A DNA stretch of 64,000 nt, from NCBI GenBank assembly GCA_013348845.1, contig CP054675.1:620001-684000 (forward strand), read 5' to 3'. The DNA comes from Candidatus Tepidiaquacella proteinivora. Lineage in GTDB: Bacteria; Bacteroidota; Ignavibacteria; Tepidaquicellales; Tepidaquicellaceae. Under the pieces are notes generated by a model that did no database searches, had not been told where the DNA came from, and saw nothing but the letters and a program-made list of their open reading frames with translations. The position numbers and the translations under genes are program-made. Shown one piece after another: positions 3,626-27,583 of this stretch (position 1 is the stretch's first letter; each line of letters opens with the position of its first letter).

Positions 3626-4903
3626 TTATTCAATATCTTGTAAATAATTAAATTCTCTTGCAAGCGCTTCAACATATTGCATATTTTCAAATTTTTCGAT
3701 CAATGCTTCGTTCGGTGATGGTAGCACCCCTGCTTCATATTCATTATAATAATCGTAAATTGCTTCAGCAATAGTAGCAGGGTTATAATCAGTAACAATT
3801 TTACAGGCATTATAATTAAGTAATACATTTTTAGTTACACCATCAGGAACACAGGCAAGGATATTTTTTCTACTACCGATATAATCACCAATGACACCCG
3901 GTAAAATAGCATCATTATTTTTAATATTTTTTATATGTAAAAAAAGAACATCGGAAGCAAGCAAATATTTAATACATTCAAGATGATTAACATAGCCCGG
4001 CATATATAAAGAATCAAGAATTTTAAAATCTTTTGCAAATCTAAGAAGTTTTTTCGGGACAATTCCAAGATACAGGAATTCAATTCTATCTTTATATAAT
4101 GGGACAGCATTAAATAGTGCTCTGATAGATTTGAATAATAATTTTAACCCTCTTGAATGGAGACTACCGACATAAGTAATTCGCATTTTATTAGTATATG
4201 GAAGATTTTTCTTTTTCGCTAATTCAAAGTCATTTTTATCAAAAGTATGAGGGTAAAGTTTTATATCATTGTAAGTTATATCAGAGTTCCTTGATATAAT
4301 CATCTCCTTAATTCGCCTATTTGTTGTAATAATTTTATTTGCATCCTTAACAACTGCACTTTCGAGTGCGATATTTCTTTTTTTATGATATAAAGTGGGA
4401 TAATATCTTAAAGTATAATTACCAACCCAACTATCCATAAAATCCACAACCAACGGGACTTTAAATCTTCTTTTCAATTCCTGCCCGATAAGGAAATCAG
4501 TAAAAGGTGGTGCAACAGCAAATACTAAATTGTAACCACCGTTTTCTTTCCATAGCTGAATTGCTTTCTTTACTGCTTTTGAATACCAGAAGATTTTAGA
4601 ATCCGGAATATAGAACCAGCTTGAAAAATAATTTTTAAAAGATTGAAAACTATCGTTCGGTACTTTAGTAATTATTTTATTCGTATCAAGAATCTCTGCA
4701 CCTGTTCTTTCAATTTTTATTCCTGAATCCAATGCTTCTCTTAAAAGAAAATCATCAACAAGAAATAACTTTCTCGGGCTATCGGTTAAAACTGTAACAT
4801 CCCAGTTAAAGTGATTCAGGTATTTAGCAAATTTCAAGGGCCTTTTCACCCCACCAAATCCCATAGGTGGAAAATAATAGGAAATAAATAAAACTTTTTT
4901 CAT
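3626..4903 (-). CDS. glycosyltransferase family 4-like protein
   Basis: This 425-residue protein starts KKVLFISYYFPPMGFGG, the glycine-rich N-terminal loop of GT-B glycosyltransferases that use nucleotide sugars. The C-terminal Rossmann half contains RITYVGSLHSRG and LPGVIGDYIGSRKNILACVP, the usual donor-binding region. No membrane segment is evident, so it should act at the cytoplasmic face. The protein at 9920-11149 is a clear paralog, sharing the YYFPP...GGV.R...KF.KYLNHF.W start. It leads the leftward unit with purD and the epimerase. Donor and acceptor are unknown. Confidence 0.88.
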   Translation of the reverse strand: MKKVLFISYYFPPMGFGGVKRPLKFAKYLNHFNWDVTVLTDSPRKLFLVDDFLLREALDSGIKIERTGAEILDTNKIITKVPNDSFQSFKNYFSSWFYIPDSKIFWYSKAVKKAIQLWKENGGYNLVFAVAPPFTDFLIGQELKRRFKVPLVVDFMDSWVGNYTLRYYPTLYHKKRNIALESAVVKDANKIITTNRRIKEMIISRNSDITYNDIKLYPHTFDKNDFELAKKKNLPYTNKMRITYVGSLHSRGLKLLFKSIRALFNAVPLYKDRIEFLYLGIVPKKLLRFAKDFKILDSLYMPGYVNHLECIKYLLASDVLFLHIKNIKNNDAILPGVIGDYIGSRKNILACVPDGVTKNVLLNYNACKIVTDYNPATIAEAIYDYYNEYEAGVLPSPNEALIEKFENMQYVEALAREFNYLQDIE

Positions 4904-12548: not shown

Positions 12549-13841
12549 TCAGAAAATTACTCCTATTTTAGTTTTAAATTCATCTAAAGAAGTATTTGCA
12601 ATTGACGCAGCTTTTTCCATAGAAAATATTCCTGTAGCTACCGAATAATTAAGCAATCTATCAAATCTGAAAGGATACTCTTTAGCAATATTATCAGCAG
12701 GTTCATTCAATTGCCAGGTTTTTTCTAAAACCAATTCGCGAAAAGAACGATATCTTCTTTCTGTAATAAGGTTAATGTCAAGAGCATATTTCATAAAATC
12801 TATAATAGAAATACCATATCTCATTTTTATTTCATTGAGTTCACCAACTGCAATTTTTCTACCAACCGGAATCAGATAATCCTTTAAAACCTTCTTTGGA
12901 AGTAAAAAAGAAATTGCAAATTTATCTAAATTTACTTCATTAATTTCCTGATTATTAAATCCAACCAATATAAATGCCAACTCTTTTGCAGCATTGAATC
13001 TTACTTTTTCAGCGGAAAGTCTGCTATTAACCACAATAAAAGGATATCCTTTATATCTACCTGAAATGCTGTTAAAATCAAAAGGTAATTCTAAAGAGAA
13101 AACCTTAATCCCTTTTTCTTCAAGTAAACCTAATAAATTATAAATAGGTTCATATCCAAGTTTCCAAAGCTTCCTTAATATTTCTGATGCATAAACAGGA
13201 TTAAATTTTAATTCATTATATAAATCAAGCATAAGATACTGCCAATTAAATTTTAATTCACGATTTAACAGATTTTCTAAATAGATATAATTTTGCATCT
13301 TTTCCGATATAATAAGTTCAATTGCTAATAATTGCTTATGATTTAGATTAGTTTCATTTCTTAATACTATATCCTTTTTTGCTTCTTTAAATGATTTTTT
13401 AAACCATTTTTTTCTTTTTTCCAGAGAAGAATAAAAATGTAAATTTTTATTAGATATTTCTTCACTTTCTTTAATATCTTCACTATTGTCAAAACTTATG
13501 CAGTAGCGAGCATTACTTTTTAATTCGGAAAGGTGTATAATTGGTCGGCATGCATTAACTAATACTTCTTTTTCAATGGAATCATCCAGACTATCATGTG
13601 TATAAGCAGAACCTGGTTCAAATGGAGTCATTTTAATATCAATAACCTGCATGATTTTTTTTAATACTTCTTCAGAAGGTCTCATAATTCCCTTTTCATA
13701 TTTTGCAATCGCCTGCCTGCTGACTATATAATCAATCATTTTTGAAAGGTCGGCAAGACTCAATCCTGCTTTTATACGTGCTGCTCTTAACATTTCAGGA
13801 AATTTAGGATCTGAAATAATATTTTTAATATTAGATTCCAT
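12549..13841 (-). CDS. XRE-family regulator fused to a degenerate ImmA/IrrE-like domain
   Basis: Of 430 residues, about 16-70 form an XRE helix-turn-helix (ARIKAGLSLADLSK...SRQAIAKYEKG). A long spacer follows, then a region at about 230-330 aligning with ImmA/IrrE metallopeptidases (LGLLEEKGIKVF, FIVVNSRLS, then RFNAAKELAFILVGF and DKFAISFLLP). The zinc motif HExxH is replaced by K286-E287-L-A-F290, and the third ligand also looks lost, so proteolysis is unlikely. In mobile elements ImmA-type proteases cleave the phage or ICE repressor; here both modules are on one chain, with the protease part perhaps kept only as a sensor or dimerisation domain. It is divergent from the capsid cassette, with an inverted-repeat operator at its 5' end. 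Confidence 0.8.
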   Translation of the reverse strand: MESNIKNIISDPKFPEMLRAARIKAGLSLADLSKMIDYIVSRQAIAKYEKGIMRPSEEVLKKIMQVIDIKMTPFEPGSAYTHDSLDDSIEKEVLVNACRPIIHLSELKSNARYCISFDNSEDIKESEEISNKNLHFYSSLEKRKKWFKKSFKEAKKDIVLRNETNLNHKQLLAIELIISEKMQNYIYLENLLNRELKFNWQYLMLDLYNELKFNPVYASEILRKLWKLGYEPIYNLLGLLEEKGIKVFSLELPFDFNSISGRYKGYPFIVVNSRLSAEKVRFNAAKELAFILVGFNNQEINEVNLDKFAISFLLPKKVLKDYLIPVGRKIAVGELNEIKMRYGISIIDFMKYALDINLITERRYRSFRELVLEKTWQLNEPADNIAKEYPFRFDRLLNYSVATGIFSMEKAASIANTSLDEFKTKIGVIF

Positions 13842-13854
13842 ATCTAAAATATTT

Positions 13855-13900
13855 ATATGTTGACAATATAATAATATAAATGATAAATGTCAACATATAA
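13855..13900. promoter_or_regulatory. perfect 12-bp inverted repeat, probable operator of the XRE regulator
   Basis: TATATGTTGACA (13855-13866) and its exact reverse complement TGTCAACATATA (13889-13900) are separated by 22 AT-only bases plus one G. Each arm contains TTGACA, so the two arms could also be -35 elements reading in opposite directions. The repeat starts 14 bases upstream of the XRE start codon, the usual place for autoregulation by such repressors, and lies between that gene and the divergent portal gene. Confidence 0.65.
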
Positions 13901-14065
13901 ATAAAAAAATATTTTAAATATAAAAATATCTGGTATAATTTTATGTATTATCAATGATTTATTTTAGAAATAATTTTTAATTAATCAAAATTTCATATTC
14001 AAATTATTGAAGATTGCAATATATTGATTTTTAATAAAATAACAGACATTGAAAAATCATTATAT

Positions 14066-14096
14066 TTGACATTCCTTAACAATAACCATAATTTTG
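14066..14096 (+). promoter_or_regulatory. predicted promoter of the capsid cassette
   Basis: TTGACA at 14066-14071 is followed after 17 bases by TAATTTTG at 14089-14096. This fits the Bacteroidota-type -7 box TAnnTTTG with a TTG-type -33 box. It lies 34 bases before the portal start codon. The prediction is by eye only. Confidence 0.5.
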
Positions 14097-14129
14097 TATG
14101 GTGATGTATAGAATTAATCAAATATAGTA

Positions 14130-15272
14130 ATGGGAAAATTAAAACAATATCTGAATAAAATAAAAAACCGATACAGAAGCATAGGGATAAACTCAATCAT
14201 AAAATCATATAAGCCTTCCTTCGGAAGTATTAATTTCCCATTTATAAATTCAGAAGGATTTAGCGCTTACAAAAGTTTTGCTTATGCCTGTATCAATGCA
14301 AGAGCGGAAAATATTTGCAAAGCGAAATTCTATTTATATGAAGATATACCCGGCAGACATGATAAGGAAATATTAAAACATCCATTTCTTGACTTAATAA
14401 ATAAACCTAATATAAGAAATCAAACATTCAGGGAATTAATATATAGAATAGCAGTAAGTCTTGATTTATACGGCAATTCATATCTCTTTATACAAAGAGG
14501 AGAAGATAAAAAGCCAAAAGGATTATATTTTTTACCCACAAAAAATGTGAGAATAAAATTAAATAGTAATATGACAGAAATTGATGGTTATATATATAAC
14601 GCAAGTGGCAAAGAGATTAATTATTCAAAAGATGATATAATACATTTTTTAATACCAGACCCTGAGAATAATTTTACCGGTAAAGCAACAATAGAGGGAT
14701 TTAATCTGACACTGGAAATAGATTATCTGCAGAATTTATATCAAAGGAATTTTTATCGCAATGATGCATCACCGGGAATGATAATAGAAGTAGAAAGAGA
14801 AATGATGGAAGCTGAGTTCGAGAGGTTTAAAGAAAAATTCAGAGCATTATATGAAGGAGCGGGAAATACAGGCAGAACCTTGTTTTTAGATAGTGGCGCA
14901 AAAGCAAAACCATTTCAGGCACATCCAAAAGATGTAGAGATATTAAATGCGAGAGTGTGGATAAGAGATGAGATAATGTCTATATTCCGCGTTCCAAAGA
15001 TAATTCTTGGAGTAACTACAGATGTAAATCGTGCTAATGCAATCCAACAATTAAGAACATTTAATGATAATGTTATCCGACCATTTGCCAAATTAACAAT
15101 AGAAAGTAAAATCAATATATTTTTAAAAGAAAATTATCCGGATGAAAATTTAAAACTTATAATGGAATATGATTTTGAAAATGACAGAGAGTTACAATTA
15201 AAAGCATACGAATTATATATGAAATACGGAATTGCAACAATAGAAGAATTAAGGGAGATGGAAGGACTTTAA
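14130..15272 (+). CDS. HK97-family phage portal protein
   Basis: The 380 residues match the HK97 portal fold: AYACINARAENICKAKFYLYE near the N-terminus, LYGNSYLFIQRGE, the YFLPTKNVRIK wing region, an FYRNDASPGMII segment, and RVPKIILGVTTDVNRAN before the C-terminal helices. The portal forms the dodecameric DNA gate of the capsid. The length is near the usual 380-420, with no frameshift. It is the first gene of a rightward cassette and has no Shine-Dalgarno site. The usual upstream neighbour, terminase large subunit, is absent; the regulator gene lies there instead. Confidence 0.93.
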   Translation: MGKLKQYLNKIKNRYRSIGINSIIKSYKPSFGSINFPFINSEGFSAYKSFAYACINARAENICKAKFYLYEDIPGRHDKEILKHPFLDLINKPNIRNQTFRELIYRIAVSLDLYGNSYLFIQRGEDKKPKGLYFLPTKNVRIKLNSNMTEIDGYIYNASGKEINYSKDDIIHFLIPDPENNFTGKATIEGFNLTLEIDYLQNLYQRNFYRNDASPGMIIEVEREMMEAEFERFKEKFRALYEGAGNTGRTLFLDSGAKAKPFQAHPKDVEILNARVWIRDEIMSIFRVPKIILGVTTDVNRANAIQQLRTFNDNVIRPFAKLTIESKINIFLKENYPDENLKLIMEYDFENDRELQLKAYELYMKYGIATIEELREMEGL

Positions 15273-15305
15273 AAAAACTTCAATAATAATAAAAAAATAA
15301 TAATT

Positions 15306-16949
15306 ATGTTCACAAAAGAATGTCAGGAAAATATTTACAGAAAAGAATTTAATGATGAAGAAAGGACAATAGTCCATTACATAACAACAAAATCAGTAGA
15401 TAGATTTATGGATATAGTATATCCGGAAGGAATGGATGACACTGATTACCGAAAAAATCCCATAGTATTATTTGCGCATGATTCGAGAAAATTAACAATT
15501 GGTAAAAATATATGGCTAAAAAGGGATTCAAAAGGGATTTTAGCAAAGACGCAATTCGCAGACACGGAATTAGGGAGGGAATTATACAGGTTAAACCGGG
15601 ATGGTTATTTAAATGCATGGAGTATAGGATTTACAATACCTGAAGGAGGCTCAGAAATTATTGATGGGATAAATCATATAAAGAAATGGATTTTACTTGA
15701 ATATTCTAATGTGCCAATACCAGCAAATCCAGAATGTTTGAATCTGATTTTAAAGGAATTTCAATTACAAAACTTAAAAAAAGAAATAAAAACAAAGGAG
15801 GAAAAAATGGATGAGAAAAAGACAACTGAAGAATCTGGTATGAATGGTTCGATAAGTGATTTAGTTGGAATTATGAAAAGAGAGACGAAATCAGTATTAA
15901 AGGAATTCTTCAGTGAAAAAAATGGTAGTACTTCTCTACCGCCAGAAAATCTTCCAAATACAGCGAATAAAAATTCAGATTCTGATAAAGAATACAGGGA
16001 TTTTATTCGCTCAATCGTTTACAGAAATAACTCAATTATGCCGGAGAAATTCAAGAATTTTTTATCTGAAGGTTCTGGTACAGCAGGAGGATATACAGTG
16101 CCACCGGAATATTATGAAAGAATAATGTCTAAATTATGGGATTCAAGTGTTATAAGGAAAAACGCAACTTTAATAAGCACTGAGAGGAAAGATTTATTAA
16201 TACCGAAGCTCAGTACATTACCGGCATTTTCTTTTGTAAATGAAGGTTCAAAGAAAAGTGTCTCAAATCCAAGTTTTGAACAAATTCAAATGAGCAGACA
16301 TGATGGTGGTTTTATAATTTTAATGTCGAAACAATTAATAGAGGATTCAAAATACGATTTACAGGGTTTTGTAACAGATATGGCAACCAGAGTCATAAGT
16401 AATGCAATAGATTTAGCAGGCTTTAAAGGTATAAGTCCAATAAAAGGGATACTTGATACTTCCGTAAGTACAACTGATGTATTAATCGGTGGTTCCCCCG
16501 ATGAGATAACATACGATAAACTAATAGAAATGATATCAGCAGTGCCAAGTGAAACACTACCTAATTGCAAATGGTATATGCATCGTTCAATGTGGGCACA
16601 AATAAAAAAACTTAAATATTCAGAAAATGGTGAGTATGTTATAACTCCGGATGAGAAAAAATCATTAACACTTGAAGGATTTCCGGTGGTATTAAGTGAT
16701 TATATTTATAGTATATATGAAGGTTCGCCGGGATATCGTTATATTGTATTCGGTGATTTAAGTTATATGTTATTAATGATGAGAGACTCAATAACTTTAA
16801 ATGTATCAGATGCAGCAAGTGTAGAAGTGGGGGGTTCACAAATCAATTTATGGCAACAAGGACTCGTTGGATTAAACTTCGGGATTGCATTTGATATTGG
16901 TTATAGTTATCCGGAAGTAATTGCAACGGGTAGAACCGGTGGGGCATAA
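15306..16949 (+). CDS. HK97-type prohead protease fused to major capsid protein
   Basis: One frame of 547 residues carries two phage functions. Residues 1-155 are an HK97/U35-type protease with catalytic His58 (VLFAHDS) and Ser106 (NAWSIGF). A charged linker follows (about 156-250), then an HK97-fold major capsid protein from about residue 255 (GTAGGYTVPPEYYERIMSKL, LLIPKLSTLPAFSFVNEGS, DLAGFKGISPIKGIL, and a C-terminal GLNFGIAFDIGYSYPEVI). Protease-capsid fusions are known in some phages. An AAAGGAGG site at 15795-15802 stands 4 bases before an internal in-frame ATG (15807), which would also make the capsid part alone. Confidence 0.92.
   Translation: MFTKECQENIYRKEFNDEERTIVHYITTKSVDRFMDIVYPEGMDDTDYRKNPIVLFAHDSRKLTIGKNIWLKRDSKGILAKTQFADTELGRELYRLNRDGYLNAWSIGFTIPEGGSEIIDGINHIKKWILLEYSNVPIPANPECLNLILKEFQLQNLKKEIKTKEEKMDEKKTTEESGMNGSISDLVGIMKRETKSVLKEFFSEKNGSTSLPPENLPNTANKNSDSDKEYRDFIRSIVYRNNSIMPEKFKNFLSEGSGTAGGYTVPPEYYERIMSKLWDSSVIRKNATLISTERKDLLIPKLSTLPAFSFVNEGSKKSVSNPSFEQIQMSRHDGGFIILMSKQLIEDSKYDLQGFVTDMATRVISNAIDLAGFKGISPIKGILDTSVSTTDVLIGGSPDEITYDKLIEMISAVPSETLPNCKWYMHRSMWAQIKKLKYSENGEYVITPDEKKSLTLEGFPVVLSDYIYSIYEGSPGYRYIVFGDLSYMLLMMRDSITLNVSDAASVEVGGSQINLWQQGLVGLNFGIAFDIGYSYPEVIATGRTGGA
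15795..15809 (+). promoter_or_regulatory. internal ribosome-binding site and start codon for separate capsid protein
   Basis: AAAGGAGG at 15795-15802 precedes ATG at 15807-15809, in the same frame as the protease-capsid gene (Met168). It would yield a 380-residue capsid precursor beginning MDEKKTTEESG with a delta-like N-terminal domain. The full-length ORF itself has no comparable site. Confidence 0.6.
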
Positions 16950-16972
16950 AAATAAAAGAAAGGAGGTTTATT

Positions 16973-17137
16973 ATGTTTACTTCACCAAAAACAACAATAT
17001 GGGGTATTTGTATAGCGATAGGAACAGCGCTTGTGAATATAAATTCTTCAGGGGATTTAGGATGGTTACATTGGTTGGGACAGATTTTAATTGCAGTAGG
17101 TTCTCTAATGCTTGGTATATCAGCAAAGGATACATAA
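16973..17137 (+). CDS. 54-residue membrane protein, holin candidate
   Basis: This short gene starts at an ATG preceded by AAAGGAGG (16959-16966) and ends at TAA 17135-17137. The product begins MFTSPKTTIWGICIAIGTAL and has two hydrophobic stretches (about residues 8-22 and 33-49) around a GDLGWLHW turn. Size, hairpin topology and position in a phage cassette that also carries an amidase fit a holin or a small phage membrane protein. There is no family match by eye, so the holin role is inference. It overlaps a longer frame at 16921-17196 that has no start site or protein-like composition. Confidence 0.65.
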   Translation: MFTSPKTTIWGICIAIGTALVNINSSGDLGWLHWLGQILIAVGSLMLGISAKDT

Positions 17138-17148
17138 AAAAACTTTTA

Positions 17149-17245
17149 GCCCGATGGAAGCATATCTTAAAGAACCCAAAAAAGACACACCATTAATAGC
17201 CGCAAATGATACCACCTGTATATCCGTTTATATCTTCCATCGGGC
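17149..17245 (+). other. long-loop inverted repeat with T tract, possible terminator
   Basis: GCCCGATGGAAGCATAT (17149-17165) pairs with ATATCTTCCATCGGGC (17230-17245), 16 of 17 bases allowing one bulge. The loop is about 64 bases and ATTTTT follows. It sits right after the 54-residue gene inside the capsid cassette. It could attenuate transcription, or be the ends of a small structured RNA; the loop holds nothing I recognise. Confidence 0.5.
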
Positions 17246-17274
17246 ATTTTTAAAAAAATTAAAATATTTTAAAA

Positions 17275-17487
17275 ATGATAAAGAAATATAAAATAAAATG
17301 TAATCTCTTCTGGAATCAGCGAAACTATTATGAAGATGATGAACTGGAAATTGAAGATTCGATAGCAAAAAAATATCCACATTTTTTTGAAGAAATAAAT
17401 AAAAAAGTTGATTCTAATAATAAAGATATCAAACCAGAAGGAAACTCAGATAAATTTAAAAAAAAGAAAAAAGCAATTAGAAAATGA
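17275..17487 (+). CDS. small phage-cassette protein, unknown
   Basis: A 70-residue protein: a basic N-terminus (KKYKIKCNLFWNQ), an acidic middle (YYEDDELEIEDSIAKKYP) and a Lys-rich tail. Small proteins of this build, with a short beta-type start and an acidic segment ending near FFEEI, are frequent between capsid and connector genes of phages, where their role is unknown. It overlaps the next gene by 4 bases (ATGA), so translation is probably coupled. The position and coupling support it as a gene. Confidence 0.65.
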   Translation: MIKKYKIKCNLFWNQRNYYEDDELEIEDSIAKKYPHFFEEINKKVDSNNKDIKPEGNSDKFKKKKKAIRK

Positions 17488-18107
17488 TAGAGCTACAGGA
17501 ATTAAAAGAATATTTAAACATATCTGATACGATACACGATCCATTTTTAATGAAATGTATAGAGTTTACTACACAGAAAATGATGGCTTATTGCAGAAGG
17601 GATTTAGTATATGGCGTAAAGTATGATGTAATCAGTGGTAATAATCAAGATATAATAAATTTAAAGGTTTATCCCGTAGATAAAGTAATATATATACATT
17701 ATCGTGATGAATGGACAATGCCACCGGGAGGAGGGCATAATCAATTTAATAAGGATTTATTTAACAATAAACCTGTAGAAGATAACATATATCTCGATGA
17801 AAATACGGGCAGAGTAGTTCTTTTGAAAGGATATACTTTACCGATAGGGACATCAAATGTTGAAATAAAATATTTAGCAGGTTATTCAGTCAATTCTCCA
17901 AATCCCGTATGTGAAACACCATTGGATTTAAAAAGTGTATGCCTGATGTCAGCAACAGAATTTTTTCTAAAAAGTTTTAAAGGAGATGGTAGAATAGGGT
18001 TAAGAGAAAAGACCGAAGGTATAACAGGTTTAAGAAATAATGAATGGATATATAAAGAAGAAGACTATTCAGTAATATTAAACCGATATAAGGAGATAAG
18101 AATATGA
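17484..18107 (+). CDS. phage gp6-like head-tail connector protein
   Basis: The 207 residues begin MIELQELKEYLNISDTIHDP, then FLMKCIEFTTQKMMAYCRRDL, the helical start typical of gp6-type DNA-packaging/head-tail connector proteins. Next are VYPVDKVIYIHYRDEW and VEIKYLAGYS and a C-terminal helix with FFLKSFKGDGRIG. Such proteins form the ring below the portal. The length is close to the family norm. It overlaps the genes on both sides by 4 bases, so the run 17275-18658 is tightly coupled. Confidence 0.85.
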   Translation: MIELQELKEYLNISDTIHDPFLMKCIEFTTQKMMAYCRRDLVYGVKYDVISGNNQDIINLKVYPVDKVIYIHYRDEWTMPPGGGHNQFNKDLFNNKPVEDNIYLDENTGRVVLLKGYTLPIGTSNVEIKYLAGYSVNSPNPVCETPLDLKSVCLMSATEFFLKSFKGDGRIGLREKTEGITGLRNNEWIYKEEDYSVILNRYKEIRI

Positions 18108-18658
18108 AAAAAATAAAAATAAACAAAGATTTTCTTTTTGATGGAGAAAGAGGTTTTGAATTTATCAATAAAAAATATAATTCTGATAATTATTTAAGAG
18201 ATATTAACTTAATAAGGGAATTAATAATTCACTGTTCTGCAACAGATAGTATAAGTTTCGAAAATCCGATTAATTTAATAAAATATGACATAAACTCAAA
18301 TCATATTTCAAGGAAAGGATGCCCTTTTGCCACATATCATTTTTATATAAATAAAGCAGGAGAAATATTTCAATTGATAGGAATAAATTACTATACATGG
18401 CATTGCAAAGGTCATAATCAATATTCACTGGCAATATGCATAAATCATTCCGGGAAATATAACAATGTCACACCTCAACAATATAAATCATTAATTGATA
18501 CAATAATATATGTATTTTCTATTTTAAATTGGGAAACAGATAAAGAAACTTTAGAAAGCAAATTACATTTTCATCGCGAATTTGCTAATAAATTATGTCC
18601 GGGTAAAATTGATAAAGAATTATTAATTAAGGAGATTTTAAACTATGAAAAAAAGTGA
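18104..18658 (+). CDS. N-acetylmuramoyl-L-alanine amidase (endolysin)
   Basis: This 184-residue protein has an Amidase_2/PGRP-type domain from about residue 38. Zinc ligands fit His in LIIHCSAT, His in LHFHREF and Cys in KLCPGK; YHFYINKAGEIFQL and YTWHCKGHN are family hallmarks. The enzyme cuts between muramic acid and L-alanine in peptidoglycan. There is no signal peptide, so release would need a holin, and the 54-residue membrane protein upstream could supply one. It overlaps the connector by 4 bases and the following membrane protein by 14 bases. Confidence 0.92.
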   Translation: MKKIKINKDFLFDGERGFEFINKKYNSDNYLRDINLIRELIIHCSATDSISFENPINLIKYDINSNHISRKGCPFATYHFYINKAGEIFQLIGINYYTWHCKGHNQYSLAICINHSGKYNNVTPQQYKSLIDTIIYVFSILNWETDKETLESKLHFHREFANKLCPGKIDKELLIKEILNYEKK

Positions 18659-19229
18659 ATATTTAATTTCTTTCATTATAATAACTGGTATCATTTTTTT
18701 ATTTTATATACTAATGAAAAGTAGATATAATTATAATCAAATAACAGATAGAGACACAATATATTTAAATAAAATCATCAGTGATACTGTAATTAATTGG
18801 AAAGAAAAAATCCTATATAAACAAGTGAAACCAAAAAGTATAAAGGTAATAAAGTCAGATACCATAGAAACTCCAAAGGAAGTAATTATAAGCGCAGAAA
18901 ATATAGATAATAAATTAAAAGTTATTTCATTAAATCTAAAAGATAGTATTTTTAAAGAGTATGATTTACCGGAAATAAATAAAGATTTCAAAATTAAAAA
19001 TACAACAAATGGTTTAATATTTGAGACAAAAAAATTTCAATATAGTGGAATTAATATCTTTACAGGTTTTGAGTATAATTTTAGCAATAATAATGAGAAG
19101 GTTAATTATATTTTTGGAATAGAATCAGGAATAAAAATAATGGATAATTATGAGCTTTCTTTTGCAGTCCAATACAGAAAAGGGGTTAATGATTATTCTG
19201 GTACAATAAAATTTAAATACAAATTATAA
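18645..19229 (+). CDS. membrane-anchored protein of the phage cassette
   Basis: Of 194 residues, one N-terminal membrane segment (about 6-24) is followed by a polar stalk with repeated beta/coil motifs (RDTIYLNK, SDTVINWKEK, KSDTIETPKEV). The C-terminus (GINIFTGFEYNF, FGIESGIKI, GTIKFKYKL) has the alternating pattern of outer-membrane or beta-hairpin strands. Similar single-pass proteins often stand beside the amidase in Bacteroidota phages and may help disrupt the envelope, but I do not recognise a family. It overlaps the amidase by 14 bases and is the last gene of the cassette. Confidence 0.7.
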   Translation: MKKSEYLISFIIITGIIFLFYILMKSRYNYNQITDRDTIYLNKIISDTVINWKEKILYKQVKPKSIKVIKSDTIETPKEVIISAENIDNKLKVISLNLKDSIFKEYDLPEINKDFKIKNTTNGLIFETKKFQYSGINIFTGFEYNFSNNNEKVNYIFGIESGIKIMDNYELSFAVQYRKGVNDYSGTIKFKYKL

Positions 19230-26518: not shown

Positions 26519-27109
26519 ATGAAAATAGAAGAATTAAAATCAGCAAAATTCAGAAATCCGAAAGTAATATCAATACCTGATATGAAATTATGGGAAACAA
26601 ATATGATGGAATTTGGCAAGGAAATTTTAAGGGAGAATGTTGATTACGGTAATTTAACAGGAATAAAAAAGCCCGTATTATTTAAACCCGGTGCGGAAAA
26701 ACTAATGAAAGCTTTTAATTTGCAGATAGAAACACTTGAATGTATCAACGAAATATTCGACAGAGAAAAGCCATACATTGATGTTACTTACAGATGTATT
26801 ATAAAATCGGACAGAAATCAAAGATTAGGAATCTGTGAAGGTTCTGCAAATAGTGAAGAAACAATTTTTAAATATAAATACAGAAAAACAAATTTAAGAC
26901 CTGATAAAAATCAATCGATTAAATTAAAAAATGAAGGTAAAGGTAAATGGATAAAATTCGATGATAAATGGGTTTGGTGTGAAAAAGTATTAAATGATGA
27001 TATACTTGCCAAGAAGAACATTATAAAAAAGGTTGCTCAGAAAAGAGCTTTTGTAGGTGCAGTGATAATGGCAACAAGTACTTCTGAATTCTTTTCAAAT
27101 ATAAAATAA
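26519..27109 (+). CDS. phage-type protein, possible recombination-associated (single-strand annealing type) protein
   Basis: The 196 residues resemble a group of phage and prophage proteins marked by KPVLFKPGAEKLMKAF, DVTYRCIIKS...GICEGSANSEE, and a C-terminal KNIIKKVAQKRAFVGAVIMAT. Members often sit beside nuclease or HNH genes in phage recombination modules; a single-strand annealing role has been suggested for relatives, but I cannot confirm the fold. It has a good AAAGGAG site. It is 9 bases upstream of the HNH gene and separated from the capsid cassette by the T9SS genes. Confidence 0.6.
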   Translation: MKIEELKSAKFRNPKVISIPDMKLWETNMMEFGKEILRENVDYGNLTGIKKPVLFKPGAEKLMKAFNLQIETLECINEIFDREKPYIDVTYRCIIKSDRNQRLGICEGSANSEETIFKYKYRKTNLRPDKNQSIKLKNEGKGKWIKFDDKWVWCEKVLNDDILAKKNIIKKVAQKRAFVGAVIMATSTSEFFSNIK

Positions 27110-27118
27110 TGCAAAACT

Positions 27119-27583
27119 ATGAAGGATATTCCTAATCATCCGTTATATTTTGCTAATGAAAATGGGCGGATTTACCGACAAAAGGGTAAATTATACAGAC
27201 AACTGACACAAATAATACAGCCATACGGTAAATATTTATCCGTATATATAATAGATGAAAAAGGTGAAAAAACTTTAAAGCAGGTGCATAAACTAATTGC
27301 ATCAGCATTTTACAATATAGTTCCTGAAGACTATGAAATAACTCATATTGACGGTAATTTATTAAACAATAAACCATCAAATTTAAGGATGGTAAAAATT
27401 AAAGCTATTAATACAGGAAATGATGATATTGATCGGAAAACAATAATAGAAGAGTATGAAAAAGAATTATTGATAAAGATAAACTATAATAGAAATCACC
27501 CATTGTGGGAAAGATATAATAAAATAAAGAAGACTAATAAATACAAAAATATTTACAACTGGTTATATGTTCACTTAAGGTGA
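27119..27583 (+). CDS. HNH endonuclease-like protein (NUMOD4/HNH type)
   Basis: Of 154 residues, the N-terminus IPNHPLYFANENGRIYR resembles the NUMOD4 motif of homing-type endonucleases. The core VHKLIASAF...ITHIDGNLLNNKPSNLRMV is the beta-beta-alpha HNH motif with His, His and Asn in place. The C-terminal third is Lys/Asn/Tyr rich and unlike known DNA-binding repeats. It could be a homing or phage-packaging-associated endonuclease. It follows the annealing-type gene by 9 bases and is convergent with htrA, with 6 bases between stops. Confidence 0.78.
   Translation: MKDIPNHPLYFANENGRIYRQKGKLYRQLTQIIQPYGKYLSVYIIDEKGEKTLKQVHKLIASAFYNIVPEDYEITHIDGNLLNNKPSNLRMVKIKAINTGNDDIDRKTIIEEYEKELLIKINYNRNHPLWERYNKIKKTNKYKNIYNWLYVHLR

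Follow-up and report, generated by a model that had tools for sequence, protein, structure and literature searches.

Three groups of gene-transfer agents (GTAs) are formally classified, two alphaproteobacterial and one spirochaetal; Faecalibacterium has recently provided a further case, and no described GTA was found for the Ignavibacteria in the literature searched. The present study concerns a 64,000-nucleotide stretch of DNA (hereafter the window) from Candidatus Tepidiaquacella proteinivora, comprising positions 620001–684000 of a single-contig, complete chromosome of 2,403,876 bases (genome G000), and in particular a cassette of phage head and lysis genes at 14130–19229 on the plus strand. 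We consider it likely that this cassette is one of two loci of a domesticated and vertically inherited DNA-packaging system of GTA-like kind, providing its head and lysis genes, and that the motor genes of the system, those of the small and large terminase subunits (TerS and TerL), lie elsewhere on the same chromosome. The two loci, their gene content, the purifying selection, the synteny, a partial agreement of trees and a common promoter box are observed. As judged from the genes, particles of a phage-like kind are probably produced by the lineage itself, and these perhaps pass around host DNA; the system is thus described here as a candidate GTA-like viriform with split head and motor genes and a presumed particle function.

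Among the known systems, RcGTA (Rhodogtaviriformidae) is similar in its HK97-type head genes, its TerS and TerL, its several loci and its vertical inheritance, but is generally known to have a full siphovirus-like tail cluster and a TerL gene beside the portal gene. Capsid-forming phage-inducible chromosomal islands (cfPICIs) are likewise generally known to encode a terminase, portal, protease, capsid and connector of their own and no tail genes, but each is one integrated, mobile island that carries integrase and replication genes, whereas the present system is split and syntenic; these satellites are cited in PMC11389934. BhGTA/VSH-1 of Brachyspira (Brachygtaviriformidae) shares the dispersal of GTA genes outside the Proteobacteria, but is generally known as a tailed, experimentally shown particle of another host phylum (see also PMC9662315). 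The nearest precedent is FpGTA of Faecalibacterium, the genes of which form two operons about 125 kb apart on one chromosome and, as here, include TerS and TerL, portal, capsid and lysis genes; its particles are without visible tails (PMC12946183). In FpGTA the TerL, portal and capsid genes share one operon and the tail and lysis genes a second (PMC12946183), whereas in the present system TerS and TerL lie apart from the head operon, no tail locus is recognized and the host belongs to a different phylum.

Three of the six features in the GTA definition of Kogay et al. (PMC9662315) are found in the gene record, namely caudoviricete-derived proteins (profile searches identify a portal, an S78 protease, an HK97 capsid, a connector and Terminase_3), multi-locus endogenization (a distance of 536 kb separates the head and terminase loci within the one complete chromosome) and vertical inheritance with partial tree support (synteny across genera and agreement of the TerL and portal trees with that of rpoB, with conflicts at weak deep nodes). 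On paper, the system would work like a GTA and is a candidate for GTA membership. The remaining three features of the definition are the encapsidation of mostly random host DNA, a genome too large to fit whole into its particle, and the delivery of DNA to other cells. The packing of both loci into one particle is implausible at a spacing of 536 kb; therefore, no particle would hold the whole system, and the cargo would be mostly host DNA. If true, domestication would have occurred independently once more, here in a bacterial family most members of which are uncultured, and with a terminase that stands apart from the head genes.

The head cassette and the distant terminase locus

The original prediction had described an intact portal, protease–capsid fusion, small membrane protein, small protein, connector, amidase and membrane-anchored protein, all of which were confirmed as present and intact. 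The HK97-type portal protein (14130–15272; PF04860, E 9e-58) is encoded once in the chromosome, no second copy being present, and is 71–74% identical to its homologs in L009 and L010, 44–61% identical in most other relatives and 39% identical in the divergent cassette L053. It is followed by an S78 prohead protease fused to an HK97-fold major capsid protein (15306–16949; protease E 1e-13, capsid PF05065 E 1e-40), the two parts being fused in some relatives and separate genes in others. The next frame encodes a 54-residue two-helix membrane protein (16973–17137) that is holin-like by position and topology, and is considered a real gene because a homolog, beginning MLSSPKTTIGG, is present in L009. 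A small head-associated protein (17275–17487), the position of which is conserved in L009, L049 and L050, precedes a gp6-like head–tail connector or adaptor (17484–18107; PF05135; phrog_442, E 4e-11) that is found in nearly all relatives. The N-acetylmuramoyl-L-alanine amidase (18104–18658; Amidase_2, E 3.5e-14) is an endolysin, in place of which several other genera have one of M15-like type (phrog_465), and the last gene (18645–19229) encodes an N-terminal transmembrane protein with C-terminal β-strands, which has homologs in five relatives and may be spanin-like; its structure model is of low confidence, with a predicted local distance difference test score (pLDDT) of 59. All of these genes lie on the plus strand, and they overlap by four bases at 17484/17487 and 18104/18107 and by 14 bases at 18645/18658. 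The GC content at third codon positions of the portal gene is 0.22, compared with 0.213 ± 0.028 in the adjoining host genes, and codon usage is within about two standard deviations; the cassette is therefore not a recent arrival.

No terminase, tail or integrase gene is found beside the cassette, as had been predicted; the prediction is to be corrected in that a further phage-derived gene pair lies 7.3 kb downstream and that, although no terminase flanks the cassette, the genome encodes TerS and TerL 536 kb away. These genes were identified by using the TerL of genome G316 (L050; Terminase_3) as the query for homologs among 29 genomes of the family. The TerL gene (genome coordinates 96927–98153, minus strand; 61% identical to the L050 protein) and the adjoining TerS gene (98116–98517, minus strand) stand alone between housekeeping genes. 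TerL keeps the Walker A (GGAGSGKS) and Walker B (IWIEEATEL) motifs and the nuclease aspartates, and the proposal that the capsid packs something other than DNA is disfavoured because a TerL with intact ATPase and nuclease motifs has been retained. The TerS model (pLDDT 80) gave no significant match in a fold search of the PDB, and predicted phage terminase small subunits match it moderately (Foldseek probability 0.99, E 0.25). TerS matches no helix–turn–helix (HTH) family, and the topology of the model, with helices at 14–29, 42–56, 60–84 and 93–104, neither shows nor excludes such a motif; in RcGTA, TerS has no N-terminal HTH (PMC6854486).

Conservation, inheritance and the promoter box

Relatives were sought in the 29 family genomes with the protease–capsid protein, and the head gene was found in 12 and a TerL homolog in 13, with both present in all 12 head carriers (Fisher p 2.5e-7, a value that ignores relatedness). 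Three of the 12 carriers are weak: G309, in which both the head set (portal 39%) and TerL (38%) are divergent, G316, which has related phage-like copies, and G323, which is known only from short contigs. The relatives share the order portal, protease and capsid (fused or separate), small protein, connector, holin-like transmembrane proteins, endolysin and transmembrane/β-strand protein. Their cassettes are bordered by host genes, none has a terminase directly upstream, and the head and terminase genes occupy different loci in nearly all carriers; the nearest linkage is that in G316 (L050), where TerS and TerL lie 3.3 kb from the portal gene with a host gene between. The search of relatives suggested with the original prediction thus yielded both the same gene order and a terminase elsewhere, and the two findings that were to overturn it did not appear: no member of the family joins its portal gene directly to terminase and tail genes, and no deletion scar or relaxed selection was seen.

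The sites of the terminase genes, the neighbours of which were named by reading the proteins without profile search, form a synteny chain that connects three genera. In G000 as in G318, the genes next to TerS–TerL are tpiA, photolyase and guaB. G305 and G306 have an arylamine N-acetyltransferase there, G306 is tied to G304 through a metallophosphatase–PAS–nitroreductase–Sua5 run, and RmuC adjoins the pair in G304, G298, G300 and G301; flanks of the head locus are common to G298 and G301 and to G305 and G306. The TerL and rpoB trees share six of ten splits over 13 genomes, a value reached in none of 5000 label shuffles, and the portal and rpoB trees share four of seven, which is above the shuffles, as is the agreement between capsid and rpoB and between portal and TerL.

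In a cfPICI-like capsid-forming satellite, the element would have its own capsid and terminase and would hijack tails from a helper phage, and the gene set (HNH, TerS, TerL, portal, protease, capsid and connector, with no tail) is indeed alike, as well as small phage-like elements of 16–18 kb occurring among the distant portal matches. However, neither locus is a single mobile island, since no integrase, replication or excision genes accompany either of them and the halves are 536 kb apart, and the terminase loci are syntenic across genera, so that the system does not move as one element; this explanation is considered very improbable. The satellite of the original prediction, which would borrow its packaging, is not supported, given the genome's own TerS and TerL and the lack of integrase and replication genes at both loci. 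The contiguous late operon, tail, replication and integration genes of a tailed phage or prophage are likewise not found at either locus, and because single-locus mobility genes are absent the system is regarded as neither a cfPICI nor a prophage.

The two loci of the proposed GTA-like system have a promoter element in common. The 15-base box AATCATTATATTTGA is located 5' of the portal gene (14055–14069, plus strand), and an identical copy is located 5' of TerS (G000:C1:98552–98566), with no third copy in the 2.4 Mb chromosome even when one mismatch is allowed. The portal promoter (14065–14096, plus strand) consists of a −33 element TTTG (14065–14068), a 20 bp spacer and the −7 element TAATTTTG (14089–14096), and the TerS promoter has equal spacing (TTTG-N20-TATATTTA); we take both to be of the Bacteroidetes type, and the sharing of the box should be read with the caveat that part of it is the −33 TTTG element. 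Other genomes have a different, genome-specific box at both promoters, namely TTTTCTTAATATTTGAC in G180, AATGTCAATATTTTTCAT in G306 and boxes resembling GCCTAACGGTCATTT in G298, G300 and G301, and the similarity of promoters within the same genome was equalled by one in 20 000 permutations. Such genome-specific common boxes provide a handle on the regulator. As a side observation, in L125 (G298:C2) a genus-specific GGTCATTT box at position 3957 lies 5' of a gene for a 1036-residue protein with a LamG domain, in the vicinity of a sigma-54 activator with a frame shift; further copies stand at several intergenic sites that have a downstream sequence in common, and this suggests a wider regulon in the genus of G298.

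With regard to selection, the dN/dS ratios (nonsynonymous to synonymous substitution rates) between G298 and G301, which are the closest pair and the sole one with usable dS for both genes, are 0.058 for portal and 0.050 for capsid, which indicates strong purifying selection; in other pairs dS is mostly saturated, with low pN/pS (the corresponding ratio of proportions) for portal, capsid and TerL, and faster evolution is seen in the transmembrane protein and TerS. Functional maintenance of the system is therefore well supported. Neither half of such a split system resembles a phage, so that it is easily mistaken for a remnant of a prophage, and a reading as two functionless surviving fragments of an old prophage would account for the lack of replication, integration or recognized tail genes, the related phage-like loci in G316 and the Mu-like phage of L009 that adjoins the cassette and probably lies inside its end. 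We nevertheless regard it as unlikely, as the frames are intact in the window's genome and most relatives, purifying selection is strong, genome-specific promoter boxes are common to both loci and head and terminase genes are co-retained in 12 genomes. Conservation, purifying selection, synteny and the separate terminase with its common box instead support the domesticated particle or GTA-like unit that was among the predicted possibilities.

Several observations weigh against the proposed GTA-like system. G318 has TerL and no head gene in its draft genome; in G316 the portal gene is inverted and apart from the capsid gene and related phage-like loci are present, from which some horizontal traffic follows; the gene-tree splits that conflict with rpoB are mostly poorly supported, with weak deep nodes; G304 and G305 have no clear shared box, and the boxes of G298 and G301 are also found at other places. 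Moreover, tails are present, or presumed to be present, in the GTAs described so far, whereas a search of the window's genome with four tail-family models (tape measure PF10145, HK97 gp10 PF04883, baseplate J PF04865 and tail tip PF13550) gave no match.

Proposed particle assembly and the tail question

In the mechanism that we propose, one cellular factor would turn on both loci. Portal, capsid and protease would then build a prohead, which the protease would mature, as suggested by knowledge of these families; TerS and TerL would fill the prohead with DNA via the portal, and the connector, by the same family knowledge, would close the filled head. The 54-residue holin-like protein, the amidase and the spanin-like protein would finally lyse the cell.

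Given that four models were used and that tail sequences change rapidly, the absence of a tail is suggested rather than shown, and the particle may be tail-less or have an unrecognized tail. Capsid-forming PICIs are thought to borrow tails from co-resident phages, and it is possible, although we hold it rather doubtful, that the present system performs tail-less packaging, in which a DNA-filled head is freed by lysis and either spreads via the tails of co-resident phages or needs no delivery. The retention of head, terminase and lysis genes together with the four unmatched tail models, the lack of a third promoter box in the genome and the cassettes of relatives, which end after the lysis genes and are followed by host genes, are in keeping with this; yet fast-diverging tail genes may escape four models, a tail under another promoter would go unnoticed in the box search, and the connector is a head–tail adaptor. 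The extra boxes in G298 and G301 were followed as a route to a tail locus and rejected, as they lead to the LamG-domain protein and to intergenic places and not to tails. Quite tentatively, the system might be a tail-losing GTA-like viriform, new to Bacteroidota/Ignavibacteria, with separate, jointly controlled head, motor and lysis loci, that releases DNA-filled tail-less capsids. The conservation of lysis and packaging without a recognizable tail makes testable how a domesticated capsid pays its way.

Neighbouring genes and related phages

The gene next to the cassette (12549–13841, minus strand) encodes a phage-type regulator with HTH_3 and M78 (ImmA/IrrE) domains (phrog_2439), under which the cassette had been placed in the original prediction. 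It is beside the cassette in the window's genome only and is absent there in every relative; it was rejected as the regulator of the cassette and is excluded from the system. In its place, the relatives have type IX secretion system proteins, HsdM or a DNA methylase. The restriction or methylase genes beside the cassette in two relatives, L009 and L010, would suit an anti-phage use, in which head proteins poison the assembly of infecting phages, but most relatives have type IX secretion or other host genes there, and TerL and the lysis genes, for which a decoy has no need, have both been retained; little probability is given to this use. The phage-derived pair 7.3 kb downstream of the cassette consists of a phrog_10048 protein (26519–27109, plus strand; E 4e-20), a possible accessory, and an HNH endonuclease (27119–27583, plus strand; PF13392/phrog_959). 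In G300 the pair lies at most 10 kb from the cassette, G298 and G301 have partial pairs, and an HNH gene of the same kind is directly 5' of TerL in the phage-like contigs L103 and L140.

L140 (G316:C281:1–8017) is a contig end with HTH, AAA_24 ATPase, exonuclease, holin-like transmembrane/lysis, endolysin, HNH and TerL genes, and its TerL is 62% identical to that of the window's genome; with this phage-like order and identity, related phages therefore exist in the family. L103 (G316:C251) has a similar phage-like order and a TerL that is about 60% identical, and both are probably phages close to the ancestor of the system. The IMG/VR contigs with the closest TerL (≤53%) have TerL, portal, protease, capsid, connector, gp7, gp10 and tail in one block. 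HK97-like siphophages (for example L147, L168 and L191) share homologous TerL, portal, protease, capsid and connector with the present system, at ≤53% identity for TerL and about 20–28% for portal, but, unlike here, these genes form one uninterrupted late operon that also includes gp7, gp10, tail tube and tape measure.

The closest portal matches outside the genomes analysed are L009 and L017, both of which are host-contig-like. In L009 (IMGVR_UViG_3300050581_000215, contig 1–26907), a Mu-like transposable phage with a transposase, a Gam-like protein, TerL, a Mu-type portal, its own capsid and a 1200-residue tape measure is directly beside the head cassette, and because the last cassette gene is missing this phage was probably inserted into it. 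Its tail genes were rejected as cassette-linked tails, as they are part of this Mu-like phage, which has a separate set of portal, capsid and TerL. L054, L055, L056, L139 and L057–L062 were rejected as relatives, being other prophages or distant portals and unrelated; L054 and L055 (G300) are prophages that look intact and are related to each other; their protease and capsid are distantly related, and they have in common distal genes of 606 and 165 residues of no known family. A second TerL family (38–40% identical) stands alone among host genes in several genomes (L135, L136, L137, L141, L138 and L104), with one copy broken by stops, and together with the divergent head cassette of L053 it possibly represents a second, parallel dispersed system.

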